DNA from: Pseudopedobacter sp.
GTDB taxonomy: Bacteria > Bacteroidota > Bacteroidia > Sphingobacteriales > Sphingobacteriaceae
Reading direction: 5' to 3'
NCBI GenBank assembly: GCA_014378105.1
Contig: JACMOI010000021.1
Coordinates: 1-64,000, forward strand
Length of the DNA: 64,000 nucleotides
Notes under the pieces: model-generated
Told to the model about the DNA's origin: nothing
What the model saw: the letters and a program-made list of their open reading frames with translations, nothing else
Databases searched by the model: none
In this document: positions 1 through 14,648 of the stretch, in pieces
Layout of the letters: the number at the start of each line of letters is the position of its first letter
Position numbering within the stretch: the first letter of the stretch is position 1
Made by a program: the position numbers and the translations under genes

Positions 1-480
1 ATGTGTAATTTTCTGTACTTAGAAAAATAGTACTATCTAATTTTATTTTTCCAAACTCAGTGGAGCCAGTTGTTCCTGTTTTTTCAACATTGTGACATGA
101 TAACAGAATTATACAATAAAGGCTTAGGCAAAAGTATTTCACAAGGTTTAAAGATTAAATGAATCGATTATTGAAAATACTTAATGATCAGCAGTTTTAA
201 AAACAAAAAGCTTTTTTGTTCTGATTATTGATTATACGGTATTGAGAATATATCTCTAGATAGGAAAGATTATAAATAGTATATTTTAGAGAAAATTAGA
301 TTTTAGAAAAAGCTCTTTATTTGTTAATCTAATTTTGAGGGATAAAAGAAAAACTGAAAATTATTTATTCCTTAATAAGATAAAGATGGTTTAGTGTATA
401 AAAGAAAATACATTTAGGCATATCGAATAATTTTACAGTAATGGAAAATAGAATATTTTGTATCATTGCCAAGCTTAAAG
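1..480. other. Gene-poor left edge
   Basis: This stretch is very AT-rich and no open frame in it resembles a protein I know. The only structure I see is an AT-rich palindrome near 202-220 (AACAAAAAG followed by CTTTTTTGTT), which could be a weak terminator. Together with the broken genes just to the right it looks like a decayed intergenic region. Confidence 0.4.
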
Positions 481-627
481 TTAATACTCAGGCTGTCTTA
501 AAATCAACTCATGGCAAAAATCAATTTGCTCCTTTTTGACAAATTCAGCTACTTTTTGGATAAATTCAAAATTTTCATTTTCTAAAATTGTTTTAAGCAA
601 TTCTAGTTTTGTGGTGCGAATATCCAT
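481..627 (-). CDS. Small antitoxin-like protein, possibly truncated (48 aa)
   Basis: The frame encodes 48 residues beginning MDIRTTKLELLKTIL. It is a charged helical peptide of the kind found as the N-terminal part of small addiction-module proteins in Bacteroidota, which lie upstream of RelE/ParE toxins. Those relatives are usually about 70-80 residues and continue into a second, acidic helix that is missing here. No toxin gene follows downstream on the same strand; the region below 481 is gene-poor. I infer an orphan or remnant antitoxin. The family link rests on N-terminal resemblance only, so it may be an unrelated small protein. Confidence 0.4.
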   Translation of the reverse strand: MDIRTTKLELLKTILENENFEFIQKVAEFVKKEQIDFCHELILRQPEY

Positions 628-716
628 TATTTGAGTCCTTTAAATCAAATTAACAAAAAAATATAATTCAGTCTGATTTTTATTACTCGTTATATTAGTT
701 TGTAAGTGTTTTTTTT

Positions 717-926
717 GTGAGACGTTTGCCTCTTTGGAACCTCTTTGCAGTCCCACATCAAGGAAAAGACTTTGAACCACATCCCGATTTATTACATCTC
801 AAAAAATCAGATTGGAAAGAAATTACCGAAGAAGTTTTTAAAGATTTATTTAAACACTCAGCAGTGAAAAGAACGAAGTTTGAAGGATTGAAAAGGAATA
901 TTGGGTTTTTGATTACTCATTCTTAA
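717..926 (+). pseudogene. queG: 3' remnant of queG (epoxyqueuosine reductase)
   Basis: The 69-residue frame reads like the last 65-70 residues of tRNA epoxyqueuosine reductase: [16 protein letters not shown], then [10 protein letters not shown] and [18 protein letters not shown]. In intact QueG this tail follows the motif DVCPWN, whose cysteine binds a 4Fe-4S cluster. Here DVC can be read just upstream in another frame (GACGTTTGC) and the frame shifts before LWN, so the cluster motif is broken. The cobalamin-binding region and most of the iron-sulfur domain are absent, and nothing upstream codes for them. It converges with the hlyD-like gene, overlapping its 3' end by 14 bases. I read it as debris from a rearrangement, with the functional queG presumably elsewhere. 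Confidence 0.75.
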
Positions 927-2205
927 ACATCGTATAAACGCTATTAAAAAGTTTGGTTAATAAACTTCTTTTTTGAGTGATGATCTCAGCATCTGCTAAT
1001 AAACCATTTTTCAAATTTAAATTTTTATGATAAGATGTTTTACCACTATCCAAGAATGTTACTCTGGCAATGTAGATAGAATCATTAATGGTCTGATTAG
1101 ATAAATAACTAATCTTCCCTTTCAACACGCCGTACTCCTGATAAGGAAAAGCACTTAAACGAATGATCACATTTTGTCCTTCTTTTACTTTTCCCAAAGC
1201 ATATTGACCGATCCGCATTTCTCCCTCAAAAGTCCCTGCATTTTTAGTTTTGATATAGAATAGCGGCTTATTGACTTCCACAAAATCCCCCTGCCTGATA
1301 AAACGGTTAAAAACAACTTTACCGCTTGACTTTGCCTCCAAAATATGTTCATGTCTCCAATTATCCAGTTCACTTTTAAATTGGTTCACCTTAGCTAAAA
1401 AGTTTTCCTTCTGTATCTTAACCTGGTTGTCCAAATCCTTTAACTCTGCCTGTTTAGCATTTTGTGACATATTATTCTGTAAATAGGAGGACGCCACATT
1501 TTCTAAAGGGATTTTTTTATTGATAAAACTACTTTCCGCTTTCTTAAATTCTGAAATAGAAATCACCTTACCATCAAGGAGTTTTTTATTGGCGTCAAAA
1601 TCCCTTTTGGCAATAGCCAAGTCTTGCTCATATATCCTTTGTTGATTTGATAGTCTGGTCCGCTGTAATTTCAAATCACTGATTTCCTCCTGAATAGAAA
1701 TCTTCTTTTGTTCATAAAAACCATTGGACAGAAAGGACTTAAACTCATTTAAAGATTGCGAAAAGGTTAAATAGGAAGATTGCAGTTCTCCTAAATGCTC
1801 TGGGTTAATTAAATAAACGTGATTAATGCGATCTAACTCATTAGAGACGACCAATTGCTGCAAATGAGAAATAGCTAAACTCATGTCCAGTACCTGCTTT
1901 GGGTGGGCATTACTTTCAATATAACCCAAAATTGCTCCGCTATCTACTAAAGTGTTTTCCTTGACAAATAAAGCAGTTAATTTCCCGGAGCTATGCGGAA
2001 TAATTTCTTCAGGCTGATTGGTACTTTCTATCCTTAATTTACCATTGATCTTATCCGGCATTCTGATGAATGCAGCACAAATGACAATTCCAATTAGCAC
2101 CCCGAAAAACACAGTTAAACCCCATCTCAATATCCAAGGTGGCGTATCGGTGATAATTTCTTCTACTTCTTCGCTGTGGATTGGATGTTCTTCTATATGT
2201 GGCAT
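913..2205 (-). CDS. HlyD-family membrane fusion protein of the peptide exporter
   Basis: This is the periplasmic adaptor subunit expected to join the C39 ABC exporter to an outer-membrane channel. A short cytoplasmic N-terminus is followed by one membrane segment (about residues 24-47), a first half lipoyl-like strand set (about 68-98, with [18 protein letters not shown]), a long coiled-coil region (about 150-310), the second half lipoyl motif ([19 protein letters not shown]) and a beta-barrel C-terminal part. At 430 residues it matches adaptors of bacteriocin exporters such as the LcnD/HlyD type. It lies 87 bases downstream of the ABC transporter on the same strand and ends the cluster. No TolC-like gene is present nearby, so an outer-membrane channel encoded elsewhere is inferred. 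Confidence 0.9.
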
Positions 2206-2272
2206 TTCCTATTATTTTTTAACTTTTAAATCCATCGCCTTAAAACCATTTTCGATAGCTAGATAGGAACGA

Positions 2273-2297
2273 ATAACTAACTAAGCAACTAACTAAA
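2273..2297. repeat. Short TAAC/CTAA simple-sequence tract
   Basis: The sequence AACTAACTAAGCAACTAACTAAAC overlaps the stop codon of the C39 transporter gene. It is the same tetranucleotide as the long CTAA microsatellite at 33074-33153 and the TTAG-rich tract near 30970-31010, all at 3' ends of genes. Confidence 0.5.
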
Positions 2298-4467
2298 CTC
2301 CCAACTCCAGCTGATTCTTGACCAGGTCATAATATTTTCCTTTCTTGGCGGTCAACGCCTCATGTGTGCCAAACTCTGCTATTTCGACTTCATGCAAAAC
2401 CACAATCTGATCAGCGTGGCGTACAGTACTTAACCGATGCGCCACTACTACTGTTTTACCTTTGGTAAAGGCATTCATATTCTCTACAATCTGACTTTCA
2501 TTATTGGCATCCAAGGCATTGGTCGCTTCATCAAAAAATAAATAGGTGGGGTTTTTATAAATAGCCCTAGCTATCAATAAGCGTTGCTTTTGACCCTGAC
2601 TGATGCCATTACCCTCTGCTCCTATTTTAGTTTGTAAACCCAAAGGCAAGGCTTGTATAAAGTCTTGAATATTGGCCATTTTAACCGCTTCATTTAACCT
2701 GATTGGGTCGGGATAATCATCGCCAACAGCAATATTATTGGCAATGGTATCAGAAAAAATAAAACCGTCCTGCATCACCACCCCACATTGCATACGCCAA
2801 AATTTAGGGCGGATGTTTTTCAAATCATTACTACCAATTTTGATGTCTCCTTTTTCAGGTTCATAAAAGCCAAGCAGTAATTTCAGTAAAGTGGTTTTTC
2901 CACTGCCACTCATCCCTACAATTGCGGTGGTTTTCCCTTCAGGGAATTGGAGGTTGATACTTTTTAAAACAGGTTCATTTCCTGCGCCTGGATATTTAAA
3001 GCTTAAATTTTGGATATAAATGCTCCTATCTTCTGGTAATTCTTGAGCAAATATTTTATCTTTTGGCTCTTCATCCTCCAAATCATGGATTTCATTCAAC
3101 CGGTCCATACTAATTCGAGCATCCTGATATGATTGAATAAAACCCAATAGCTGCTCTACCGGACTACTCAATTGCCCGATGATATATTGAATGGCGATCA
3201 TAGCCCCTAAAGTCAATTGCCCATTGATGACTGCTTGCGCTACCAAGAATATGATGATAAAGTTTTTCCCTTCATTGATGAAGGTTGCTCCTGCTTGTTG
3301 TGTTTGTCCTAATGCCAAGCTTTTTATACTGTATTTAAACAATTTGGCTTGTATACGCTCCCAGTTCCAGCGCTTTTGTTGCTCACTGCCACTTAGCTTA
3401 ATTTCCTGCATGCCATTCACCAATTGTATGACTTCACTTTGGTTCTGTGAAGCTATGGCGAAACGTTTATAATCCAATTGCTTCCTTCGATTCAAAAAGG
3501 CGATCACCCATAAACCATAGAGCACACTCGCCACCACAAAAACAATAAAGATATTGAGATTATAAAATGCAAGAATAAAGGAGAACATCACTAAATTGAA
3601 CATAGAGAAAACAATCTGCAGAGATTGCCCCGTTAAAAAGCTCTCTATCCTTTTCTGGTCGCTCATCCGCTGCATGATATCCCCGGTCATTTTGGTATCA
3701 AAATAGCTGATGGGCAAACGCATGAGTTTGATCAAAAAATCAGATAATACAGAGATGTTTAAGCGGGTGCTGATGTGCAGCAATATCCAGGAACGAATAA
3801 AATCCACACTCATCCGTGATATCAACAATACAAACTGTGCAATCAGGATGATATAGATGAAGCTTAGATCATTAGTACTGATCCCCACATCCACGATGGC
3901 TTGGGTCAAAAAAGGAAGGATCAACTGCAACAAACTCCCGATAGCAAAACCAAAGGCCAACTGAACCAATAGTTTTTTATGTCTATATAAGTAGCTATAG
4001 AATTCTGCAAATCCTTTGCGCTGTTCGGTATCTCCTTCTTCTTTGTAAAACTCGGTAGTGGGCTCTAGCAATAAAGCAATTCCATAACTGGAACCGTTGT
4101 TTTTATAGCTATACCAGGATTCTATAAACTCCTTTTCAGAGTAAATCATCAAACCTTTAGCGGGATCTGCAATGCTATATTTATTCCTTTTAATTTTATA
4201 CAGTACCACAAAATGGTTTTGTCCCCAATGTAGGATGACTGGTAAAACGGCTTCCTTAAGTTGGTTCAAATTTATCTTTACCCCTGTTGACCTAAAGCCA
4301 ATCTGTTCTGCCGCTTCTGCAATGCCCAATAAAGAAACCCCTTCTTTGGAAAAGCCAGATAAACTTCTTAGCCTTTGCAAACTGAAGCTACGCACATAGT
4401 GTTTAGCCACCATTTGAAGGCAGGTTGGACCACAGTCCATTTGGTTTTTCTGACGGTAGAATTTCAC
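2293..4467 (-). CDS. Peptidase C39-containing ABC exporter (double-glycine leader processing)
   Basis: This protein should cut the leader of GG-type precursor peptides and export the core across the inner membrane. The N-terminal C39 cysteine peptidase has its full catalytic set: Q6, C12 in QMDCGPTC, H85 in NHFVVLY and D101 in ADP. A six-helix transmembrane domain spans about 160-450. The nucleotide-binding domain has Walker A GMSGSGKTT at 518-526, a signature ISQGQ at 622-626 (Ile and Gln in place of LSGGQ), Walker B ending in D646-E647 and switch histidine H677. The length of 724 residues is typical. The start is GTG, in a GTGA overlap with the upstream tlpA-like gene, so the two are probably translationally coupled. 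The two GG-leader peptides upstream are its likely substrates. Confidence 0.95.
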   Translation of the reverse strand: MKFYRQKNQMDCGPTCLQMVAKHYVRSFSLQRLRSLSGFSKEGVSLLGIAEAAEQIGFRSTGVKINLNQLKEAVLPVILHWGQNHFVVLYKIKRNKYSIADPAKGLMIYSEKEFIESWYSYKNNGSSYGIALLLEPTTEFYKEEGDTEQRKGFAEFYSYLYRHKKLLVQLAFGFAIGSLLQLILPFLTQAIVDVGISTNDLSFIYIILIAQFVLLISRMSVDFIRSWILLHISTRLNISVLSDFLIKLMRLPISYFDTKMTGDIMQRMSDQKRIESFLTGQSLQIVFSMFNLVMFSFILAFYNLNIFIVFVVASVLYGLWVIAFLNRRKQLDYKRFAIASQNQSEVIQLVNGMQEIKLSGSEQQKRWNWERIQAKLFKYSIKSLALGQTQQAGATFINEGKNFIIIFLVAQAVINGQLTLGAMIAIQYIIGQLSSPVEQLLGFIQSYQDARISMDRLNEIHDLEDEEPKDKIFAQELPEDRSIYIQNLSFKYPGAGNEPVLKSINLQFPEGKTTAIVGMSGSGKTTLLKLLLGFYEPEKGDIKIGSNDLKNIRPKFWRMQCGVVMQDGFIFSDTIANNIAVGDDYPDPIRLNEAVKMANIQDFIQALPLGLQTKIGAEGNGISQGQKQRLLIARAIYKNPTYLFFDEATNALDANNESQIVENMNAFTKGKTVVVAHRLSTVRHADQIVVLHEVEIAEFGTHEALTAKKGKYYDLVKNQLELGV

Positions 4468-4949
4468 TTTATTAATTTCTCAATCTCTCTTTTCAATGAA
4501 TCAAGATTGTTTTCAGTATAACCTTCGGCTTTAAAAACGACTTTTCCATCCTTGTTAAACAATATATTAGTTGGGTACAAAGTGATTTCCAAGCTTTTAC
4601 TAAGTTCTTCATTAGGTAATACTTGAGTGAAAAGAAAGGGGAATTTTTTAATAAAATAGTTGATTTGTTCTTTAGAATTGTCTTTTGAGATAGCAATAAA
4701 CATTATTCTGTCTTTGTAGGACAAAGCTATTTTATTCAATTCAGGGATTTCTTTCATACATGGGTAACAGCCTATGAACCAAAAGTTAAGCAGTACGATT
4801 TTTTCCTCTAAATTAGCTCGTGATAATGTATCATTTTTTGTAGTTATAAGTTTATAGCTATGCAAATTTTGTGCACTTAGTTCCATTGAAGACATTAAGC
4901 AACCTATGTACACAATAATTAATATTAGGGCCTTATTCAAATTTACCAT
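4464..4949 (-). CDS. TlpA-like periplasmic thioredoxin, redox protein of the peptide cluster
   Basis: A 161-residue secreted thioredoxin-fold protein of the TlpA/ResA type. An N-terminal hydrophobic signal (about residues 5-26, ending near SAQ) is followed by a short pre-domain and the thioredoxin core with active site C61-Y-P-C64 in FWFIGCYPCMKE and the cis-proline loop in LYPTNIL. Proteins of this type reduce or exchange disulfides in the periplasm. Its start overlaps the end of the lipoprotein gene by 17 bases and its end overlaps the exporter gene by four bases, so it is firmly inside this operon. Because the candidate exported peptides carry six cysteines each, a role in their folding or in resolving wrong disulfides is a reasonable inference. 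Confidence 0.88.
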   Translation of the reverse strand: MVNLNKALILIIVYIGCLMSSMELSAQNLHSYKLITTKNDTLSRANLEEKIVLLNFWFIGCYPCMKEIPELNKIALSYKDRIMFIAISKDNSKEQINYFIKKFPFLFTQVLPNEELSKSLEITLYPTNILFNKDGKVVFKAEGYTENNLDSLKREIEKLIK

Positions 4950-5919
4950 ACCTTATAAATTGATTATTACCAACAAATACCGCAATGATTCTTCTAATCT
5001 CTAAATTTATATCAACATGATTACCTAAATCAAAATGGCTTTTATTAAAACTATAGTGTGTTTCTAATAAATCGGGAATTAAGTTATTTACTTCTTTATT
5101 TTTTTTCGAGTAGTATTTCAAATCCAAATAAATCGAATCTTTTTTTATGGACTCTGAAAAAATAAAATCAACAGAATAATCTGTTTTTTTGTTGACCAAT
5201 TTTTTTGTATTGTTGTAAAACTTTATAAAAAGTTGGTTTCTTTCTTTCTGTTTATTCTTTACTCTTTGATTATTTTTTTCGACATATTTACAAAATGAAT
5301 TATTAATAATTCGTTTAAAATATAGACGCTGGTCTTTCGTAAATTTTTTGTTAACAAATTTTATGTTATTTACTGAAAATGATATAGAGTTATCTCCATT
5401 CATGTTATCCTGATTCATGTTTTGTGGTTTTAGCCAAAACCTCCAAGGGGTAATATTACTAGCTAAATTAGTATTGAAATATCCGTTAAATCCTTTTCGT
5501 AATTCAATTTTATGGTTATAAAACGAGTCGATTATTGAGATACTACCTGATGTAACGCCAAATACTACGTATTTTTTTTGATTAAAAATATCTAAATATA
5601 AAGGTCTTGCTTCCGCGGTGTAATTAAAATATTTTTTATTTTTTATAGTAGTAGGGGTTAACTGAAATAACAATTTAACATTCAAAAAATCGCTGCTATT
5701 TGTCAGTGTATCTAATATAAATGTTTGGTTTAAATCTGATATAGAATCTATACCATTTAATATCCAATTATTATGGGTGACAAAGAAATCTTCGTTTCTT
5801 TTTAAAGTTTCATTATAATTAATTTCACTTATTTTAAGTGACTTATATTCAACTAATTTATTTGTTTTACAACTAACTAATAAAAGGTAAAAACAAATTA
5901 TAATAGAAATAATTTTCAT
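4933..5919 (-). CDS. Unknown lipoprotein of the peptide cluster (328 aa)
   Basis: I do not recognise this protein. It has a lipoprotein signal with lipobox LLVSC at residues 13-17 and then about 310 residues rich in Asn, Lys, Phe and Tyr, with many predicted beta strands and no motif I can name. It lies 50 bases downstream of the first GG-leader peptide and overlaps the tlpA-like gene, so it is transcribed with them. Its position between precursor and maturation genes suggests a role in immunity, in handling the exported peptide in the periplasm, or in anchoring it to the outer membrane. Immunity proteins are often lipoproteins, but nothing in the sequence proves this. Confidence 0.75.
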   Translation of the reverse strand: MKIISIIICFYLLLVSCKTNKLVEYKSLKISEINYNETLKRNEDFFVTHNNWILNGIDSISDLNQTFILDTLTNSSDFLNVKLLFQLTPTTIKNKKYFNYTAEARPLYLDIFNQKKYVVFGVTSGSISIIDSFYNHKIELRKGFNGYFNTNLASNITPWRFWLKPQNMNQDNMNGDNSISFSVNNIKFVNKKFTKDQRLYFKRIINNSFCKYVEKNNQRVKNKQKERNQLFIKFYNNTKKLVNKKTDYSVDFIFSESIKKDSIYLDLKYYSKKNKEVNNLIPDLLETHYSFNKSHFDLGNHVDINLEIRRIIAVFVGNNQFIRYGKFE

Positions 5920-5969
5920 ATTGTAGTATTTAAATTAGGGAGGTATAAACCTCCCTAAAATTCATTAAT

Positions 5970-6146
5970 TTATGAACAGCCACCACATTTGGTACCATAT
6001 AGATCTGAACACTCGATTGCACAGCTAGTTGTGGTACCTGAGCAAGGGTACTGTTCACCGTTATTACTACAAGTATGTTCTGCTGGCACATACCCGCCCA
6101 CAACCATTTTCATTTCATTCTTACTTAATTTTACAAAATTTTCCAT
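5970..6146 (-). CDS. Double-glycine-leader precursor of a six-cysteine peptide (copy 1, 58 aa)
   Basis: The frame encodes a leader MENFVKLSKNEMKMVVGG, a Bacteroidota GG-type leader like those in natural product precursor family TIGR04149. A 40-residue core begins YVPAEHTC. Cleavage after G17-G18 would release a core with cysteines at residues 26, 35, 42, 46, 54 and 57, enough for three disulfides, and a Gly-rich end CGGCS. It lies in the same operon as a C39 exporter, thioredoxins and a lipoprotein. The leader differs from that of the second precursor at only two positions, whereas the cores differ almost completely. The 109-bp conserved element sits 23 bases upstream. A bacteriocin or a signalling peptide is inferred. 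Confidence 0.85.
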   Translation of the reverse strand: MENFVKLSKNEMKMVVGGYVPAEHTCSNNGEQYPCSGTTTSCAIECSDLYGTKCGGCS

Positions 6147-6169
6147 TTTATTAATTTTACATTTGTTTT

Positions 6170-6278
6170 TAATAAAGTCCTAAGTTCTCAAAAGCATCAG
6201 GACTTGTTAATTATTTTGCTACCGAGAGGTTGGTAAAACCAAGGTTGGGTCGCTCCTAGAGTGGCCTTTCCTTATTTA
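6170..6278 (-). promoter_or_regulatory. Conserved 109-bp leader element, copy 1
   Basis: This block lies immediately upstream of the first precursor gene and recurs at 7715-7823 with only two adjacent differences (TC versus CT at 6250-6251). It contains two hairpins: AAGTCCT/AGGACTT (6175-6181 with 6199-6205) and TTGGT-AAA-ACCAA (6230-6242). Such conservation outside coding sequence, in the 5' region of two genes whose cores have diverged, points to a shared promoter or structured 5' leader RNA. A family match was not identified. Confidence 0.65.
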
Positions 6279-6339
6279 TTTAAATACTAGAAGACTGTAT
6301 GTTTTTTGTTTCATATCTAAATGATTATCTCAATAAATT

Positions 6340-7476
6340 TCATAATGCTGTTTTTAAATAAGTATTAATTTCAGACGGCAATAGATTAATCGCAACAACT
6401 TTTCCATTTTTATCTACCAATATATTACTAGGGAATGCTTTAATCGATAATTTAGCACTTTGCAGTCCTCCTTCATCAATATATTGTGGCCATTGTAAGT
6501 TATGGGCCTTTATTGTATTTAACCAGTTGTTCTTGTTTTTTTGATAATCAGTAGATATCCCAATTATTTCAAAGCCCTTTAAATGAAATTGGGTGTAGAT
6601 CAGATTCATTTCTGCAAATTGGGCAATACATGGACCGCAGTTGCTATACCAAAAATCAAGTAAAGTATATTTATTTGCCCTATAATCTATAGAATCAATT
6701 TTATTATTATTTATCCCTACAATCGGAAACTTATGTATTGCTTTACTTAAGGCATACAAATTGGAATTTTTCAGGTATTGCTGTAGAAATTTACCCGAAT
6801 AACTATTTTTTAATGAATCTGATAATTTAGAATTTATATTATCGAAAATTTTATAATATCCAAATGGGGTTAGATTGATGAACCTCCAAAAAGAATAATA
6901 GGAATTAGGATGTTCTGAAACAAAACTCAACAATGTACTATCACTTTCTAAATAACTTTTTTTAAGCCTTAAATCAAGTGTCCTCTGAATATTAGGAGGA
7001 ATTTGCTTATTGTAAGCTAGTATTAAACTATCCCAATCATTATCGAGCTCTTTTCTTTTATAATTTACATTAGAGAATGCATTGATATATGGAGGATAAT
7101 CCAGCTTCATTATTGGGTTATTTAAACTGACTTCAAGTTTATTTGACTTCAAGTTTAAAATCATGATTTGCTTCCCTTTATCTAGTACAAATAAATCAGA
7201 AATAAATGATCTATTATTTATAGAAATTTGATAAGCTACTGGATTTTGAAGTTCCCCTTTTAAGTTGAATTTACCATCTACTATATTAGCCTCTAAATGT
7301 CTCAAATGAGTTGGATAAAAAGAAGAGTCAGCAACTAATTCAAAAATAACTTTTCCAGAATCAACAGAAACTAAACCTTCAAGGCTAAAGTTATTTTTGT
7401 TTTTCTGTGCAAAGCAGTTTAAGCTAAATAGTGAAAAGAACAATAAAAATCTAATATTTTTATTTAAAAAAATCAT
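6340..7476 (-). CDS. DUF4369/TlpA-like thioredoxin-domain protein
   Basis: A 378-residue exported protein with a signal peptide ending near CFAQ (residue 24), an N-terminal beta-rich DUF4369-like region (about 28-130), a helical linker (about 140-250) and a C-terminal AhpC/TSA-type thioredoxin domain (about 255-378). The redox motif is N-C-G-P-C in FWYSNCGPCIAQF and the cis-proline loop reads AFPSNIL. This is the usual architecture of Bacteroidota periplasmic TlpA-like disulfide reductases. It lies between the two GG-leader precursor genes, 49 bases after the second, and is presumably co-transcribed. A role in rearranging disulfides of the six-cysteine peptides is inferred from context, since the family alone does not specify a substrate. 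Confidence 0.88.
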   Translation of the reverse strand: MIFLNKNIRFLLFFSLFSLNCFAQKNKNNFSLEGLVSVDSGKVIFELVADSSFYPTHLRHLEANIVDGKFNLKGELQNPVAYQISINNRSFISDLFVLDKGKQIMILNLKSNKLEVSLNNPIMKLDYPPYINAFSNVNYKRKELDNDWDSLILAYNKQIPPNIQRTLDLRLKKSYLESDSTLLSFVSEHPNSYYSFWRFINLTPFGYYKIFDNINSKLSDSLKNSYSGKFLQQYLKNSNLYALSKAIHKFPIVGINNNKIDSIDYRANKYTLLDFWYSNCGPCIAQFAEMNLIYTQFHLKGFEIIGISTDYQKNKNNWLNTIKAHNLQWPQYIDEGGLQSAKLSIKAFPSNILVDKNGKVVAINLLPSEINTYLKTAL

Positions 7477-7525
7477 TTAATTTATTTTTAAAGGCTGAAG
7501 ATAAACTCCAGCCTAAATTGATTTA

Positions 7526-7690
7526 TTAGTTTCTTGATTTACATAAGCCATTGTCACACCAATCTCTACTATCTTTACAAGGACAATCTATATTACATTT
7601 ATTTACGCATTCGCCAATTATAACTAATTCATCAACCCCTCCTACAACCATTTTCATTTCACTCTTACTTAATTTTACTAAATTTTCCAT
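7526..7690 (-). CDS. Double-glycine-leader precursor of a six-cysteine peptide (copy 2, 54 aa)
   Basis: The leader MENLVKLSKSEMKMVVGG is identical to that of the other precursor at 16 of 18 positions. The 36-residue core begins VDELVIIGEC and has cysteines at 28, 32, 36, 38, 45 and 50, again six but in a different spacing (C-x3-C-x3-C-x-C-x6-C-x4-C). The core is charged, with several Asp and Lys residues. The second copy of the 109-bp element lies 24 bases upstream. Shared leaders with unrelated cores are the usual sign that one exporter handles several products. No LanB, LanM or radical SAM gene is present in the cluster, so disulfides are the most likely modification. Confidence 0.85.
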   Translation of the reverse strand: MENLVKLSKSEMKMVVGGVDELVIIGECVNKCNIDCPCKDSRDWCDNGLCKSRN

Positions 7691-7714
7691 TGTATTATTT
7701 TTAAATTTGTTTTT

Positions 7715-7823
7715 TAATAAAGTCCTAAGTTCTCAAAAGCATCAGGACTTGTTAATTATTTTGCTACCGAGAGGTTGGTAAAACCAAGGTTGGGCTGCTC
7801 CTAGAGTGGCCTTTCCTTATTTA
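7715..7823 (-). promoter_or_regulatory. Conserved 109-bp leader element, copy 2
   Basis: This is the second copy of the block described at 6170-6278, at the same distance from its precursor gene and differing by two bases. The stretch CTTCTAG further upstream is also shared, though the spacing there differs (7831-7840 here, 6286-6294 there). It separates the precursor genes from the VKOR-like gene, which supports a separate transcription start or a processing site for the peptide genes. Confidence 0.65.
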
Positions 7824-7929
7824 AATAATGAGCTAGAAGACGTTTGATTTAAGGTTCAACATTTGGGTTAATTAACATTTTATAAAAGCTCTCACTACTT
7901 TAAACTTTCTACTTTAAACTTTTTAATTA

Positions 7930-9516
7930 TCACTCCAAATTCATCAATACATATTTCAAATCTTTTAATTGATATTGTTTCGGCAATTGATAACCATTAA
8001 TATAAAAGGTTGGAGTTCCCTTGATTTCATTCAATTTACACCAATTTACCTGTTCCAATAATTCCAGTTTATCTTCCTCTTTAACATTAATAGGATATTT
8101 TTCCTTCCAACTATCCAATTTTTGATAATCTTGACTATACCAATTTTTTAGTGCTTTTTCTACAAGATGAATGTCCGTTTGCTGTATGGCTAGTAAATGT
8201 TTGAAAAAATGTTGTTGCTTATCATTTTCATCCATTCGAAAGGTATATACAATGTTGAGTTTAAAGTCCATTCCCTTAGTGATCCATTCTTCCAAAAACT
8301 GGTGGGCTTTGGCACATGGATTACAAAAGGGATTAGATATCATGGTAATGGCTAAGAGAGAGTCAGGATTTCCTAATACAATTGTTGTTTTAGGTAAGGC
8401 ACCTACATATTGGTTCTGGCTGTATAACTGATTTTTAAAGACCTCCACATTAAACTTGAACTTATTGAGCTCACTTTGCAGAGGCACTAGTTTTTGAGCA
8501 TTTTTAAAAAGATCTTTGCTACTCAGCCAAACAACCGAGGGAAATAAAAACACTATAAGTAATAATGGTATTTGATAAAAGTTAAAAACACTGAATAATG
8601 CAGGATATTTATAAAGAGTAAAAAAACTAAACAAGGCCTGCAACCAAAATAAACCTTGGATCATTAAGCATAACCTGCACCAAGTTCTAGCAATTTTCCA
8701 TTGATAATAAACAGACCAGAAGGTAAAAGGCAATGCAAGCACATTTAAAGTGAGGATAGCAACAGCCGCAGTTGAATCATGGCTTAAAAACAAAATCAGT
8801 AAGGAACCTGAAAAGTAGAGAAAGCCTAAATCTGAAAGGCTAAACCACGAAGTGAGATGAGCAGCTTGACTGCTTAAAATATGGTTACAATTGTGCTTAG
8901 ACTCTGAACCACAAAGTTGCTGAATGAAGCTGTTGCTGCGACCCAAACTTTGTATCAACAACATAACACTTATGGATAAGCCAGCTACTAAACAAATAAA
9001 TTGTCCTGTAAATAGGATTGGGCTGAATAGGGTTATAGTAAGGCTTTTAAAAAATAAAATACCGATCAGAGCAATACTGAATAAAGGCACTAGATAAGGA
9101 ATCAGCACTTTATAATTCAACTTTTGCTTGAGTTCCTGTTTTTGTACTTCACTTACCAACACCACCCCTGTCCATATCTTTTCAAAATCAGCAAAAGATA
9201 TTTGTCTTTTTTTTCCTTCCAGTTCATAAAAAATCTTATCAGCTTTTACCTCAGTGATAAGTACGTATTCTCCTCCTTTTGTATTCAAATGAGCCATACA
9301 GGGAAGATTCACTTCATGCAATTGGTCACTTTGTATCTTTACAGCAAAATTTTTGATACCTGCCTCATTCTCCAGCACCTCACTAATGCTTAATAGGCTT
9401 GGATAATAAGGATGTTGAAGCAGCTTTTCTTGCAATTGCGTTACAGCGTCAAAACCAAAATAATTGGAAAAATTAATAGTAGTAGCCGTAATAGGATCTA
9501 GTTTAGTATTGGTCAT
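7930..9516 (-). CDS. C39-like/VKOR/DsbA fusion: disulfide-forming membrane protein of the peptide cluster
   Basis: This 528-residue protein should introduce disulfides into exported peptides and pass the electrons to quinone. The first 125 residues resemble a peptidase C39 fold but have no QxDCGPxC motif; C73 is the only cysteine there, so the domain is probably a catalytically dead peptide-binding module. A vitamin K epoxide reductase-like membrane domain (about 135-335) has the loop pair C202 and C210 and the quinone-side motif C280-R-L-C283. A C-terminal DsbA-like thioredoxin domain carries N-P-F-C398-N-P-C401 and cis-proline P502 in GTPTFYING. It is the first gene of the cluster. VKOR/thioredoxin fusions are established disulfide-forming enzymes; the link to the two six-cysteine peptides is inferred from neighbourhood. 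Confidence 0.92.
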   Translation of the reverse strand: MTNTKLDPITATTINFSNYFGFDAVTQLQEKLLQHPYYPSLLSISEVLENEAGIKNFAVKIQSDQLHEVNLPCMAHLNTKGGEYVLITEVKADKIFYELEGKKRQISFADFEKIWTGVVLVSEVQKQELKQKLNYKVLIPYLVPLFSIALIGILFFKSLTITLFSPILFTGQFICLVAGLSISVMLLIQSLGRSNSFIQQLCGSESKHNCNHILSSQAAHLTSWFSLSDLGFLYFSGSLLILFLSHDSTAAVAILTLNVLALPFTFWSVYYQWKIARTWCRLCLMIQGLFWLQALFSFFTLYKYPALFSVFNFYQIPLLLIVFLFPSVVWLSSKDLFKNAQKLVPLQSELNKFKFNVEVFKNQLYSQNQYVGALPKTTIVLGNPDSLLAITMISNPFCNPCAKAHQFLEEWITKGMDFKLNIVYTFRMDENDKQQHFFKHLLAIQQTDIHLVEKALKNWYSQDYQKLDSWKEKYPINVKEEDKLELLEQVNWCKLNEIKGTPTFYINGYQLPKQYQLKDLKYVLMNLE

Positions 9517-10095
9517 AAAATGGTAGTATTAGGTAAATACTTGAATTGTAAATTAGTAAAAGCGGTTTTATTAAACTAATAATTTAAAAAAAATTAAAAA
9601 AGATACTCTTAAATTAATAATTTATCATATAAAAATACTGAGATGACTATGCTTAATTCATTATTTCAATTTTTAAATCAATATTCCAAGTTATTTTTTG
9701 AAGACAAGTCCAGTATGATTAAAAAAATATCATCTGTAGCGCCGTCCATAATTAGGAAGATAAATCATCACCTTTTGAGAAATACCTTTTGCTTTTAAAC
9801 CTTAAATTCATTAAATTTATTCCCGAATATCATCTTATTCTACCTCTCCCTATTTGCCTTTCCTCATTTAAACCAAAGTTCTCAATACGAAAGATAAAGC
9901 TAAGATCAACGTAAGATAAACGTAGGATAAAGCTTCCCTAGGTATAGGATGGTGTTAGGATAAGTATAGTAACGCACTTAAATTTTCGCTTCAAGATTAT
10001 TTTTAAAAAGCCTGTTAGATTCATACCAAATAATCTTCTATACTTAATTTTTAATCCTAATGCTAAATCTGCATTTTTGCCAAAACAAATTCTCA
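9517..10095. other. Intergenic region with degenerate GATAAA repeats
   Basis: The only clear structure is at about 9890-9970, where units of the form AAGATAAAGC, AAGATCAACG, AAGATAAACG and AGGATAAAGC follow one another, giving a degenerate tandem array with a period of 10-12 bases. It lies between the peptide cluster and the first MFS gene. I see no RNA gene here and no convincing promoter. Confidence 0.45.
9643..9798 (+). CDS. Possible small protein of unknown function (51 aa)
   Basis: A short frame begins MTMLNSLFQFLNQYSKLFF and ends RNTFCF. I recognise no family. It lies alone in a 580-base gap between divergent genes, has no visible promoter of the TAnnTTTG type, and could be chance. It lacks a GG leader, so it is not a third precursor of the peptide cluster. 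Confidence 0.15.
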   Translation: MTMLNSLFQFLNQYSKLFFEDKSSMIKKISSVAPSIIRKINHHLLRNTFCF

Positions 10096-11328
10096 ATGGC
10101 AAAAAACGGCAAAGCAGCCTTAGGCTTTATCTTTATCACTTTACTAATTGACGTCACTGGATTAGGAATTATCATTCCAGTTTTACCTACTTTAATTGCC
10201 GAATTAATTCATGGAAATTTAAGTCAGGCGGCAAGTTATGGCGGTTGGTTAACTTTTGCTTATGCCATTATGCAATTTGTATTTGCTCCCATTCTAGGAA
10301 ACCTGAGTGATAGATATGGCCGTCGACCAGTTTTGTTGTTTTCCCTATTCGGATTTGGAATCGATTATCTTTTCTTGGCCTTCGCCCCTACCATTTGGTG
10401 GCTATTTGTCGGAAGAATTATTGCAGGTGTTACCGGAGCAAGTTTCACTACGGCTTCTGCTTACATTGCAGATATCAGCACACCTGAGAAAAGAGCGCAA
10501 AATTTCGGTTTGATAGGTGCTGCTTTCGGGTTAGGTTTTATTTTAGGTCCTGTCATAGGTGGTTTACTCGGTCAATTTGGTTCTAGAATCCCATTTTTTG
10601 CCGCTGCAGGATTAAGTTTGCTGAATACTTTATACGGTTTCTTTGTATTGCCAGAGTCGTTACCCGTCGAAAAAAGAAGACCTTTCGAGCTGAAAAGAGC
10701 TAATCCTTTAGGTTCCTTAATGCAATTGAAAAAGTATCCCGCCGTCAGCGGTTTAATCATTACTTTAATTTTGATGTATACTGCTAACAACGGGTTGCAA
10801 AGTACTTGGGCTTATTATGGCATGGAAAAATTTAGCTGGGATGAAAAATGGGTGGGCTATTCTTTAGGCTTTATAGGCTTAATGATTGGTTTGGTGCAAG
10901 TAGTGATTATTCGTTGGGCCATCCCGAAATTTGGGCAAGAGAAAAGTTTATATATCGGTTTGCTTTTTTATAGCCTTGGATTATTCCTTTTTGCTTTTGC
11001 ACCCAATGGCTTATTGATGTTCATCTTCATTGTACCTTACTCTTTGGGCGGAATTGCAGGTCCGGCTTTACAAAGCATCATCAGTGGCTTTGCCCCATCT
11101 AACGAACAAGGAGAGTTACAAGGTGCATTAACCAGCTTAATGAGTGCGACTACTATTTTTGCTCCTCCATTAATGACCACACTTTTCGCTTATTTTACCG
11201 CTAAAAATGCCCCAATCATATTTCCCGGAGCACCTTTCTTATTGAGTTCTATTTTAGTTTTGTTAAGTGTTTATTTGGCACACCGAAGTTTAAATGCGTA
11301 TGCTATTAAGAATAAGGCAAACCAATAA
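10096..11328 (+). CDS. TCR/Tet-family MFS drug exporter
   Basis: A 12-helix major facilitator of the tetracycline-resistance-like (TetA-type, DHA1) group. The N-terminal signature is clear: [21 protein letters not shown] in helix 1, the loop 2-3 motif [17 protein letters not shown], and the motif C stretch [16 protein letters not shown]-like in helix 5. Such proteins exchange protons for hydrophobic drugs. I place the start at [10 protein letters not shown] rather than at an in-frame ATG 12 codons earlier, because the extra residues are unlike the family. The next MFS gene begins 26 bases downstream, so they are likely co-transcribed. The substrate cannot be told from sequence. Confidence 0.9.
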
Positions 11329-11354
11329 GTCCAACAATTGTAATATCAACATCA

Positions 11355-12644
11355 ATGGCTGTTCAAAAAGGTTTCTCTTCTGTTTTTAGATCATTAAAAT
11401 ATAGGAATTTTAAACTTTTCTTCGCGGGTCAATCCATTTCCTTAATCGGGACTTGGATGCAGCGAATGGCCGTAAGTTGGTTGGTTTATGATGTGACCCA
11501 CTCTGCTATTTTATTAGGCTTGGTCATGTTTGCTGGGCAGTTCCCTTCCCTTCTCCTTGGCCCCTACGGAGGAATTATTTCTGATAGATACAGTAGATAT
11601 AAAATCCTATTATTTACACAAGTCGCTTCTTTAGTTCAGGCTGGGGCATTAACCATCATGATTCTTGGTGGATATTACAGCACCCTTGGCGTGATTTTAT
11701 TAAGTGCCTTATTGGGCGTAATCAATGCTTTTGACATTCCATCTCGGCAATCATTAATGATTGAACTGATAGAAGATAAGGAAAACCTACCCAATGCCAT
11801 TGCCCTCAATTCGAGCATGGTGAATTTAGCAAGATTGATAGGGCCAACAGTTGCCGGACTCTTAATTGCATGGGTGGGAGAAGGCATGTGTTTTTTAATC
11901 AATACCCTCACCTTTATTCCTGTACTCAGTTCATTGTTATTGATGAAGATTAAACCTAAAACAAGCTTTAAAAGAGATCATAATGTTTGGGAGAGTTTAA
12001 AACAAGGATACCAATACCTGCAAACAAAACCTGATATCAGGTTGATGATTATCTTAATGGCTTGTATCAGCTTTTCGGTGATGCCTTTTCTAACCTTGCT
12101 TCCAATTTTTGCTAAAGATATATTTCATGGTGACGCCAAAACGTTGAGCTGGCTAGAAGCCGCTACTGGCTTGGGCGCATTAGGTGGTGCAATCTATTTG
12201 GCAGGAGCTCAAAAAATTAAAAACCTTTCAAAACTGGTCATCGTTTCCATTTTTATTTTCTCAGGAACGTTGGCTTTATTTTCCTATTCACCTTGGTTGT
12301 GGATGTCTATTCTATTCTTAGCAATATCTGGAATTGGACAAATGATCCAAATTTCGGGCTCCAATAGTTATATCCAAACACATGTAGATGACCAAATGAG
12401 AGGAAGGGTCATCAGCTTTTATGCAATGGCTTTTCAAGGGATGATGCCAATTGGAAGTTTTGTTGCTGGATTTTCTGCCACCCATATTGGTGCACCATTG
12501 ACCCTTTTTATCATGAGTTTACTTGGATTAATAACTGCTGTCATTTTTTATTTTCTCCTTAAAAAAGTTAGAATGAGGATTGTAACCAGAGATCGATTAG
12601 AGATAAGGGAAACACCAGGATTTAATTTTGATGCTAAGCTGTAA
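11355..12644 (+). CDS. MFS transporter of the EntS-like (MFS_3) family
   Basis: A 429-residue major facilitator. The N-terminus RSLKYRNFKLFFAGQSISLIGTWMQRMAVSWLVYDVT is the hallmark of the EntS/MFS_3 group, proton-driven exporters of siderophores, macrolides and other compounds. The motif A loop is GGIISDRYSRYKILL, and a second conserved stretch reads AFDIPSRQSLMIEL. It follows another MFS gene of a different subfamily closely, and the GtrA gene starts 20 bases after it. No siderophore biosynthesis gene is near, so the natural substrate is open. Confidence 0.9.
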   Translation: MAVQKGFSSVFRSLKYRNFKLFFAGQSISLIGTWMQRMAVSWLVYDVTHSAILLGLVMFAGQFPSLLLGPYGGIISDRYSRYKILLFTQVASLVQAGALTIMILGGYYSTLGVILLSALLGVINAFDIPSRQSLMIELIEDKENLPNAIALNSSMVNLARLIGPTVAGLLIAWVGEGMCFLINTLTFIPVLSSLLLMKIKPKTSFKRDHNVWESLKQGYQYLQTKPDIRLMIILMACISFSVMPFLTLLPIFAKDIFHGDAKTLSWLEAATGLGALGGAIYLAGAQKIKNLSKLVIVSIFIFSGTLALFSYSPWLWMSILFLAISGIGQMIQISGSNSYIQTHVDDQMRGRVISFYAMAFQGMMPIGSFVAGFSATHIGAPLTLFIMSLLGLITAVIFYFLLKKVRMRIVTRDRLEIRETPGFNFDAKL

Positions 12645-12664: not shown

Positions 12665-13177
12665 ATGTTTAGAAGCCTACACCAAAAAATCCGAACTTTT
12701 ATCCTCAGCTTGATTGATGTCTTCTATCCCATCTTTAAGAAGTGGATGCCTTTGCAAACTTACAGGTATGCAGCTTGTGGTGGCGGAACCACTTTCCTCA
12801 ATATTCTCATTTACTTTATCAGCTATAATTTTGTTTTAAAAAAAGAGATTGTTCATTTTTCTTTTATTGCCATTAGCCCGCATATTGCAGCTTTTATCAT
12901 TGCTTTTTTCTTGACGTTCCCGATAGGTTATTATCTCAATACTTTTGTGGTTTTTCAAGGATCCTATCTTAAAAAAAGGATTCAACTCTTCCGATACTTT
13001 TTAGTGGTTTGTATCAACATTTTATTGAATTACCTGTTTATTAAGATTTTTGTAGAGAAATTTGGTTGGTATCCTACGCCATCCGCAATGGCAACCAACG
13101 CAATTTTGATCGTCTTTAGCTATTTTTCCCAGAGGAATTTCTCCTTCAGAAAAGAAAAAATCAGCTTTAATAAATAA
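12665..13177 (+). CDS. GtrA-family membrane protein
   Basis: A 170-residue protein with four hydrophobic segments and the GtrA-like pattern: FxRYxxxGGxxT near the first helix (here YRYAACGGGTTFLNILIYF) and a C-terminal helix ending in a basic tail with NFSFRKEK. GtrA-like proteins take part in moving polyprenyl-linked sugars across the membrane or in related cell-surface polysaccharide work. A TTG codon three codons upstream would also be in frame, but it forms part of the likely -7 element, so the ATG is preferred. The last 11 bases overlap the end of the convergent T9SS gene. Confidence 0.85.
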   Translation: MFRSLHQKIRTFILSLIDVFYPIFKKWMPLQTYRYAACGGGTTFLNILIYFISYNFVLKKEIVHFSFIAISPHIAAFIIAFFLTFPIGYYLNTFVVFQGSYLKKRIQLFRYFLVVCINILLNYLFIKIFVEKFGWYPTPSAMATNAILIVFSYFSQRNFSFRKEKISFNK

Positions 13178-14648
13178 TCAGTACACTGCCACGGTAAAGC
13201 GGGCGAATGGGTGAATGGGTATCAATGATATAATAATACATGCCTTGAGGTAAATTATTGTTCTTCAATTTTCCATCCCAAGCTTTAGGATATCCTTTAG
13301 CAGCATATACTTTCTGACCGTTTCTGTTAAAAATGGTAATATCAACATCGCTATTCCCTAACAAACCTTGAATTTGCCAAAGATCATTCACACCATCCCC
13401 GTTAGGGCTAAAAGTATCAGGTATTTTAATATCTTGATCAACATGAACGGTAACTTCGGCCATTGCCTCGCAACCGCTATTTAGATCTGTAACTGTTAGC
13501 GTATAAATAGTAGTTTCGGTGGGTTTTACGATGGGTTGTAAAACATGAGGGTCACTTAAATAGGTTGCAGGTGACCATTCATAAACTAAATTTGGGGGAG
13601 CTGTAGCTAATATTTTTGTAGCGGAATTTTCTAACACATAAACATCCTTACCAGCATCAATCACCAAGCTGGGAACAACTTTAACTTCTATTACATTTGA
13701 ATAAACCCTGCAGCTGCTATTTGCTATATTTTCCTCTTCGGCAGCTGCCATTCTATAAGAATATCCTTTCTTGTCTGCATTGGTGATCAATGCTTGATAA
13801 GTGCTCGAGGAACTATTTGGGATATTCACCCAATCATTTCCGTCATGCTTATCCTCCTGCCAAAGAAAAGCTGGTTTCAAATAACCACTAGAGACATCTG
13901 CTTTAAAAGTATAAGCTTGAGTAGCACCCTCGCAAAGGGTAAGGCTACTGCTAATAGTCGAATTCTCATTGGCTAAAATAGTTGGCCCACAGGGCCTAAA
14001 AGTAATATCGTCTAAGGCTAAATCATTTCCACATCCTCCTCCTAAAGTATTATTAATTAACTTCAAAACTACTTTTGATACGTTTGGGGGACTTTTAAAA
14101 AAGAAACCATACTTTTTCCACTCCGGTGTATTGGTTTCATAAATTAACCCTGTATTTGAAGATCCGATAACCTGTCCATTCTCGGTTTCTACAACAAAAG
14201 TAATATCTGGATAAGATACTGTAGAATTCCCGCTACATGGCGATGATGCTTTCCTTACATTCATGATATAAGAAGATAGTTCATAAGTGGTGTTGGGACA
14301 CAAATTATTTACTGAAAAAGTATAAAAAATATCGGGCGTATTTTTAGCATTCACTAGCATCATATAGCCATTGGTATCTCCGGGCGTATGATCTTCGTTT
14401 ACGGTATGCCAGCTTCCACCAAAGCAGTTACTTGTTTTATTAACAATTACGTAATTACCATCATTTGGACAGTCGCTGCCGCTATAATTTAAACCCGTAT
14501 TGTCTGCAGTTAAAGAAGGACCTACACCAGTTCCAGTTCCGAAACTTTGGGTAACTGTTGGATCTCCCAAACTTCCGATACAAATTTGAGCTTGTGTTTG
14601 AAAGCCTAATAAACCGAACAAGAAAACAAAAATTAAAAGATATTTCAT
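13167..14648 (-). CDS. T9SS type B (gliding motility-associated CTD) surface protein
   Basis: A 493-residue secreted protein. The signal peptide (about residues 1-20, ending TQAQ) is followed by a jelly-roll-like region with paired cysteines (about 30-220), two Ig/PKD-like beta domains and the type B sorting domain at the C-terminus, with its typical start IPDTFSPNGDGVNDLW, then VDITIFNRNGQKVY and WDGKLKNNNLPQGMYYY. That domain directs export through the type IX system to the cell surface or medium. Its start overlaps the DUF3820 gene by four bases (ATGA), suggesting co-transcription with phzF and DUF3820 although no functional link is evident. The substrate of the N-terminal region is unknown. 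Confidence 0.92.
   Translation of the reverse strand: MKYLLIFVFLFGLLGFQTQAQICIGSLGDPTVTQSFGTGTGVGPSLTADNTGLNYSGSDCPNDGNYVIVNKTSNCFGGSWHTVNEDHTPGDTNGYMMLVNAKNTPDIFYTFSVNNLCPNTTYELSSYIMNVRKASSPCSGNSTVSYPDITFVVETENGQVIGSSNTGLIYETNTPEWKKYGFFFKSPPNVSKVVLKLINNTLGGGCGNDLALDDITFRPCGPTILANENSTISSSLTLCEGATQAYTFKADVSSGYLKPAFLWQEDKHDGNDWVNIPNSSSSTYQALITNADKKGYSYRMAAAEEENIANSSCRVYSNVIEVKVVPSLVIDAGKDVYVLENSATKILATAPPNLVYEWSPATYLSDPHVLQPIVKPTETTIYTLTVTDLNSGCEAMAEVTVHVDQDIKIPDTFSPNGDGVNDLWQIQGLLGNSDVDITIFNRNGQKVYAAKGYPKAWDGKLKNNNLPQGMYYYIIDTHSPIRPLYRGSVLIIY

Follow-up and report, generated by a model that had tools for sequence, protein, structure and literature searches.

The closest known system to the locus reported here is that of the bacteroidetocins, class IIf bacteriocins of Bacteroidota (Coyne et al, 2019; PMC6671954) that target BamA (PMC8546649). 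Their loci comprise a protein with five transmembrane helices, the peptide, a thiol oxidoreductase and a C39 ATP-binding cassette (ABC) exporter; they direct production of a killing peptide, in E. coli as well, deletion of the transmembrane or oxidoreductase gene lowers activity, and no obvious immunity gene accompanies them (PMC6671954). We describe a locus following the same logic in a 64,000-nucleotide stretch from the soil-type Bacteroidota Pseudopedobacter sp. (contig JACMOI010000021.1, positions 1 to 64,000, hereafter the window), in which two cysteine-rich peptide precursors with double-glycine (GG) leaders lie beside an exporter and a fusion of a C39-like domain, a VKOR core and a DsbA-like domain. 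The locus is probably a factory dedicated to making disulfide-rich peptides for export. Its features are as follows:

7930–9516, minus strand: VKOR fusion, with a pseudo-C39 domain (residues 8–122), six predicted transmembrane helices with the VKOR core, and a DsbA-like thioredoxin domain
7700–7828, minus strand: 5′ untranslated region (5′UTR) block of precursor 2, placed by nucleotide comparison
7526–7690, minus strand: precursor 2, a 54-residue frame with an 18-residue GG leader and a 36-residue core with six cysteines
6340–7476, minus strand: partner gene of precursor 2, encoding a DUF4369-like part (match below the family cut-off) and a TlpA-like thioredoxin (CGPC), with signal sequence
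6155–6283, minus strand: 5′UTR block of precursor 1, with an AAGTCCT...AGGACTT hairpin; it shares 93% identity with the precursor 2 block
5970–6146, minus strand: precursor 1, a 58-residue frame with an 18-residue GG leader and a 40-residue core with six cysteines
4933–5919, minus strand: predicted lipoprotein that may serve in immunity or as an accessory, encoded by the gene partnering precursor 1
4464–4949, minus strand: TlpA/ResA-like thioredoxin (CYPC) with signal sequence
2293–4467, minus strand: C39 peptidase-containing ABC exporter of the PCAT type, by domain matches and catalytic residues
913–2205, minus strand: HlyD-type membrane fusion protein, by domain matches

An earlier note on this DNA had placed both precursor frames, the VKOR/DsbA fusion and the two TlpA-like thioredoxins where we find them. 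The leaders, MENFVKLSKNEMKMVVGG and MENLVKLSKSEMKMVVGG, agree at 16 of 18 positions, as it had counted, and match the consensus of PCAT substrates, L(-12)xxxE(-8)L(-7)xxxxGG (PMC6959990), at L-12 and E-8, with M at -7. The cores do differ while each keeping six cysteines (their nucleotide identity, 46%, is at the level of unrelated DNA), and the exporter has the complete catalytic set attributed to it (Cys12, His85 and Asp101, in QMDCGP, NHFVV and ADPAKG). The HlyD adaptor is present too, although just beyond the interval that the note had drawn around the cluster. The note had passed over the lipoprotein (which gave no hit in family searches and has no relative encoded in any of the 101 related loci considered below), the 129-nucleotide block upstream of both precursors, the degenerate C39 domain of the VKOR protein, the cassette organization of the precursor genes and the 5′UTR RNA of relatives.

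Of 201 genomes in the same family, 55 encode a relative of the VKOR protein; named relatives belong chiefly to Pedobacter and Mucilaginibacter, and some others come from Chitinophagaceae, Runella and Bacteroidales. We compared 101 non-redundant VKOR neighborhoods (the related loci), scoring as a precursor any GG leader followed by a core with at least three cysteines. At least one precursor is found in 79 of these loci, giving 125 precursors in total, and 121 of 124 lie on the VKOR strand; control DNA (91 kb) shows no instance of this pattern, and shuffled DNA (558 kb) a single one. A C39 ABC exporter is encoded in 68 of the loci, HlyD in 66 and TlpA in 46, and the window exporter is 55–69% identical to the exporters of most of them. 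Because most of the 101 loci share this arrangement, the observation exceeds chance, and the conservation of precursor, VKOR and C39 genes that the earlier note had named as a supporting sign is borne out. The locus is part of a large, little-described group.

The precursors of this group share a striking parity: their cores contain four (n = 16), six (n = 83), eight (n = 23), ten (n = 1) or an odd number (n = 2) of cysteines, and the count is even in 123 of 125 cases. Were odd and even counts equally likely, at most two odd ones among 125 would arise with a probability of about 2e-34, a value overstated owing to paralogy. This parity constitutes evidence, at the level of sequence, that the core cysteines are paired in disulfides. 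Together with the conserved gene set and the intact active sites, it strongly supports the note's proposal that the locus makes, oxidizes and exports disulfide peptides. Several findings nonetheless weigh against a dedicated factory: VKOR relatives are absent from all 17 other genomes of the genus, 22 of the 101 VKOR loci lack a precursor by the pattern used, C39 loci without VKOR, compared for a link between VKOR and cysteine cores, yielded only four precursors (with 0, 0, 6 and 8 cysteines), and the window cores gave no meaningful match in the PDB and reached no family cut-off. One congener (G065), lacking both VKOR and a close exporter homologue, keeps the 5′UTR block at 86% identity beside a broken leader and a six-cysteine core, a remnant such as joint decay of precursor and machinery would leave.

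Comparison of the two window precursors at the nucleotide level reveals a sharp boundary, with 93% identity in the 5′ block and 93% in the leader set against 46% in the core and 55% in the 3′ flank. The same division is seen in six other loci (L044, L046, L055, L057, L079 and L081), where the 150 nucleotides upstream of paralogous precursors are 78–98% identical and the leaders usually 70–100%, while core and 3′ flank usually fall to the unrelated-DNA level of 42–56%. Not counting those for the exporter, HlyD and VKOR, 77 genes follow a precursor on the same strand within 200 nucleotides. A signal peptide is predicted for 71 of them, versus 506 of 1308 among all genes of these loci (using a crude hydropathy rule), and 49 of the 77 contain CxxC. 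From these alignments and predictions we define the cassette as a constant 5′ half joined to a variable core and accompanied by a secreted partner, which in most cases has a thioredoxin fold. The peptides form exchangeable cassettes that share their 5′UTR and leader.

The constant half extends to RNA in relatives of the window locus. With upstream clustering restricted to intergenic DNA, the 5′ regions of precursors gave 957 cross-locus matches at E ≤ 1e-5, every one on the plus strand and none on the minus. The largest group (type B, 33 sequences, from Pedobacter) comprises three hairpins; its covariation is 0.492, against 0.203 for shuffled versions and no more than 0.153 for slid ones, and both sides change in 23 of 25 pairs. 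A covariance model of type B built in the present work (R1) gave 14 hits in 151 family genomes, eight of them training loci; the six independent hits lie before GG-leader frames (four), in a VKOR locus where no precursor was detected (one) and before a lipoprotein gene (one). At one of the four GG-leader hits (L186; G145:C17, about 5100–12477), type B RNA precedes a GG-leader gene with an acidic, cysteine-free core, beside a C39 exporter and HlyD and with no VKOR; type B RNA hence tracks the leader and exporter rather than disulfides as such. A second group (type A, mostly Mucilaginibacter) also has three hairpins, with weaker support. In type A 5′UTRs (L044, L046, L055 and L091) the conserved AAAGT of hairpin 1 could also pair with a conserved downstream ACTTT, a possible two-structure switch. 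The window 5′UTR element is a separate, divergent type with three known copies.

The VKOR fusion would link this peptide supply to oxidation. A Peptidase_C39 match covers its residues 41–123, the family profile of its N-domain matches the C39 domain of PCAT1 (E about 1e-7), and the AlphaFold model of this domain superimposes on C39 structures 7n87 (template modeling score 0.69) and 6mpz, a leader complex (0.72); the C-terminal end of the model matches BdbD/ScsC. The catalytic Cys, His and Asp are all missing from the N-terminal C39 domain. The redox cysteines (202, 210, 280, 283, 398 and 401) are invariant in 101 of 101 family proteins, and the fusion has the two loop cysteines, the CXXC and the thioredoxin CXXC of a VKOR/DsbA oxidase.

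We propose that precursors would be produced behind the common 5′UTR and GG leader, and that the leader would recruit them to two domains of C39 type, the inactive one on the VKOR fusion (pseudo-C39) and the exporter's own active peptidase. Docking on the former is a step that we infer from its fold, which is the fold that binds GG leaders. At the precursor so held, the VKOR core and DsbA-like domain, using quinone, would install three disulfides on the cytosolic side, before export; the exporter C39 domain would then cut after GG and the small product would leave via the HlyD adaptor and presumably TolC, with the secreted TlpA-like partners probably proofreading or isomerizing disulfides in the periplasm.

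For the orientation of the fusion, we lean slightly toward catalysis that faces the cytosol, with oxidation preceding export, as modeled from helix prediction and loop charge. With six transmembrane helices predicted, the pseudo-C39 domain and the redox centers fall on one side of the membrane, and lysine plus arginine per loop amount to 3.6, 3.6, 2.0 and 4.1 on this catalytic side, against 0.15, 0.09 and 0.71 on the other. Their number in the loop between helices 3 and 4 exceeds that between helices 2 and 3 in 99 of 101 family VKORs, with the reverse in 9 of 11 canonical VKORs of the same phylum (p 9e-9); the positive charge that canonical periplasmic VKORs carry on the non-catalytic side is here reversed, and under the positive-inside rule catalysis would take place on the cytosolic face. 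The PCAT1 barrel can hold small folded cargo (PMC8277102), and PMC12453122 cites an archaeal VKOR, of Aeropyrum pernix, with a topology serving two compartments (Hibender 2017). The same factory could instead work in conventional order, with periplasmic VKOR and DsbA domains oxidizing the peptide during or after export and the pseudo-C39 domain either periplasmic or tethering the enzyme to the exporter, and this has a substantial chance, if somewhat below an even one. DsbA/VKOR systems normally face the periplasm, as do all the well-studied bacterial examples; the TlpA partners are secreted, in keeping with the signal peptides predicted in genes following precursors; and the cytosolic topology is built from hydropathy, one AlphaFold model (mean predicted local distance difference test, pLDDT, 77.7; predicted template modeling score, pTM, 0.45) and the positive-inside rule, all of which count against oxidation in the cytosol. 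The charge reversal in 99 of 101 proteins argues for it, as does the extra helix before the VKOR core, since a 120-residue N-domain without a signal peptide would otherwise need to cross the membrane. A further doubt concerns the 5′ half of the cassettes, in which near-identical 5′UTRs and leaders might reflect recent duplication only, with no regulatory role. The window element itself would allow this (an Rfam scan of the window and four related loci gave no match, model R1 found none in window positions 1–12000 up to E = 10, and single-strand folding was no better than for shuffled sequence), yet we regard it as rather unlikely, given that the constant-5′/unrelated-core pattern recurs at 78% identity or above in the six other loci and that the 5′UTRs of relatives are conserved between species with strong covariation.

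As to function, the window peptides likely work like bacteroidetocins, and by that analogy, which is also why we favor a bacteriocin over a signal, we hold it moderately likely that they are bacteriocins killing related Bacteroidota. The acidic net charge of the window cores (-3 and -2), unlike the basic bacteroidetocins A and B, speaks against this. Pheromone-like signals passed from cell to cell would share much of the apparatus, as competence pheromones too rely on GG leaders and C39 exporters, and no clear immunity gene was found at the locus; bacteroidetocins, however, likewise lack immunity genes (PMC6671954), and the extreme diversity of cores across related loci, the several unrelated cores per locus and the absence of a visible conserved adjoining sensor or regulator make signaling unlikely. 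That the cores are substrates of TIGR04149-type radical S-adenosylmethionine (SAM) enzymes, which make ribosomally synthesized and post-translationally modified peptides (RiPPs), rather than disulfide peptides, is very improbable: the leaders show weak similarity to that family (20.9 and 17.4 bits versus a cut-off of 25), but there is no radical-SAM gene in the locus, cysteine parity is even and the VKOR set is conserved. Lanthipeptides, graspetides and radical-SAM RiPPs in general were rejected because the cluster proteins include no such enzyme, in line with what the earlier note had said of the lanthipeptide and radical-SAM kinds; a class IIa bacteriocin was set aside as the YGNGVxC motif is absent from both cores, and anti-phage defense as PADLOC gave no hit. 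Joined into one picture, a peptide-dedicated, cytosol-facing VKOR-DsbA, leader capture by an inactive C39 domain, disulfide folding before ABC cleavage and release, and constant–variable cassettes under a new structured 5′UTR RNA class form a tentative reading.

Among individual cores, core 1 resembles those of L081 (43% over 30 residues, cysteines aligned), while core 2 has no relative at E < 0.01 in the precursor set. The fold prediction suggested by the earlier note returned a beta-beta-alpha arrangement for core 1 (AlphaFold with four sequences), at a pLDDT of 70 and pTM of 0.39 that are too weak for use. Knottin-like, inhibitor-cystine-knot spacing (C..C..CC..C..C) is seen in L128 at 9690, 10049 and 10384 (Mucilaginibacter pineti) and in L161 at 11672, possible bacterial knottins. 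A second GG-leader family (MNLTKxQMRxxxGG), with one cysteine per core, adjoins Pedobacter VKOR loci on the opposite strand (L056 8116, L071 8016, L076 10696). The window genome also holds a third, orphan leader, MKTFVRLTKNEMKMVIGG (G000:C97:6961-7092; L011 6961-7092, minus strand), with a 25-residue tail, two cysteines and no adjoining exporter, which resembles a decayed precursor. A 493-residue secreted protein with a sorting-like C-terminal end is encoded close to each of the two leader-bearing loci of the genome, in copies 75% identical (window 13167–14648 and L011 8203–9684).

These loci open up a large reservoir of highly variable bacterial disulfide peptides, with knottin-like spacing in some and all the maturation genes alongside, and they make testable the idea of cytosolic peptide oxidation by a leader-guided enzyme before export. 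A literature search found no paper describing this VKOR fusion, the precursor cassettes or their RNA, which is weak evidence of novelty as subscription journals were little covered.

Compared with known systems, the window shares with bacteroidetocins a GG-leader cysteine peptide beside a C39 ABC exporter, a thiol oxidoreductase and a multi-transmembrane protein, and its six cysteines per core exceed the minimum of two that defines them (bacteroidetocins have four). Its leaders (18 residues against 15–16) and cores (40 and 36 against 42–53 for the mature peptide) depart from theirs in length, so we do not class the window peptides as bacteroidetocins; the window further differs in HlyD and in several precursors per locus. 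Its multi-transmembrane protein is the pseudo-C39-VKOR-DsbA fusion, with six predicted helices, where bacteroidetocin loci have a five-helix protein, and a VKOR fusion is the obvious candidate, compared by description, for the likely identity of that unexplained protein. The TIGR04149 and NF047798 GG-leader peptides of Bacteroidota resemble the window peptides in the leader, which scores below both cut-offs, and the window has no radical-SAM enzyme. With the exporters PCAT1, ComA and LahT, the window exporter has in common the order of C39, transmembrane and nucleotide-binding domains, the intact Cys/His/Asp and the L-12/E-8 leader fit, and unlike them it is Gram-negative with HlyD and stands beside a second, inactive C39 domain on an oxidase. 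The VKOR of Aeropyrum pernix, an archaeal enzyme of general disulfide formation, shares the predicted inverted orientation; the window enzyme, by contrast, would be peptide-dedicated and is fused to a leader-type domain. Relative to the canonical bacterial VKOR-thioredoxin fusion (PDB 4nv2), with which it shares the loop cysteine pair, the CXXC and the thioredoxin-fold CXXC, the window fusion adds a pseudo-C39 domain and a transmembrane helix and reverses the loop charge pattern.

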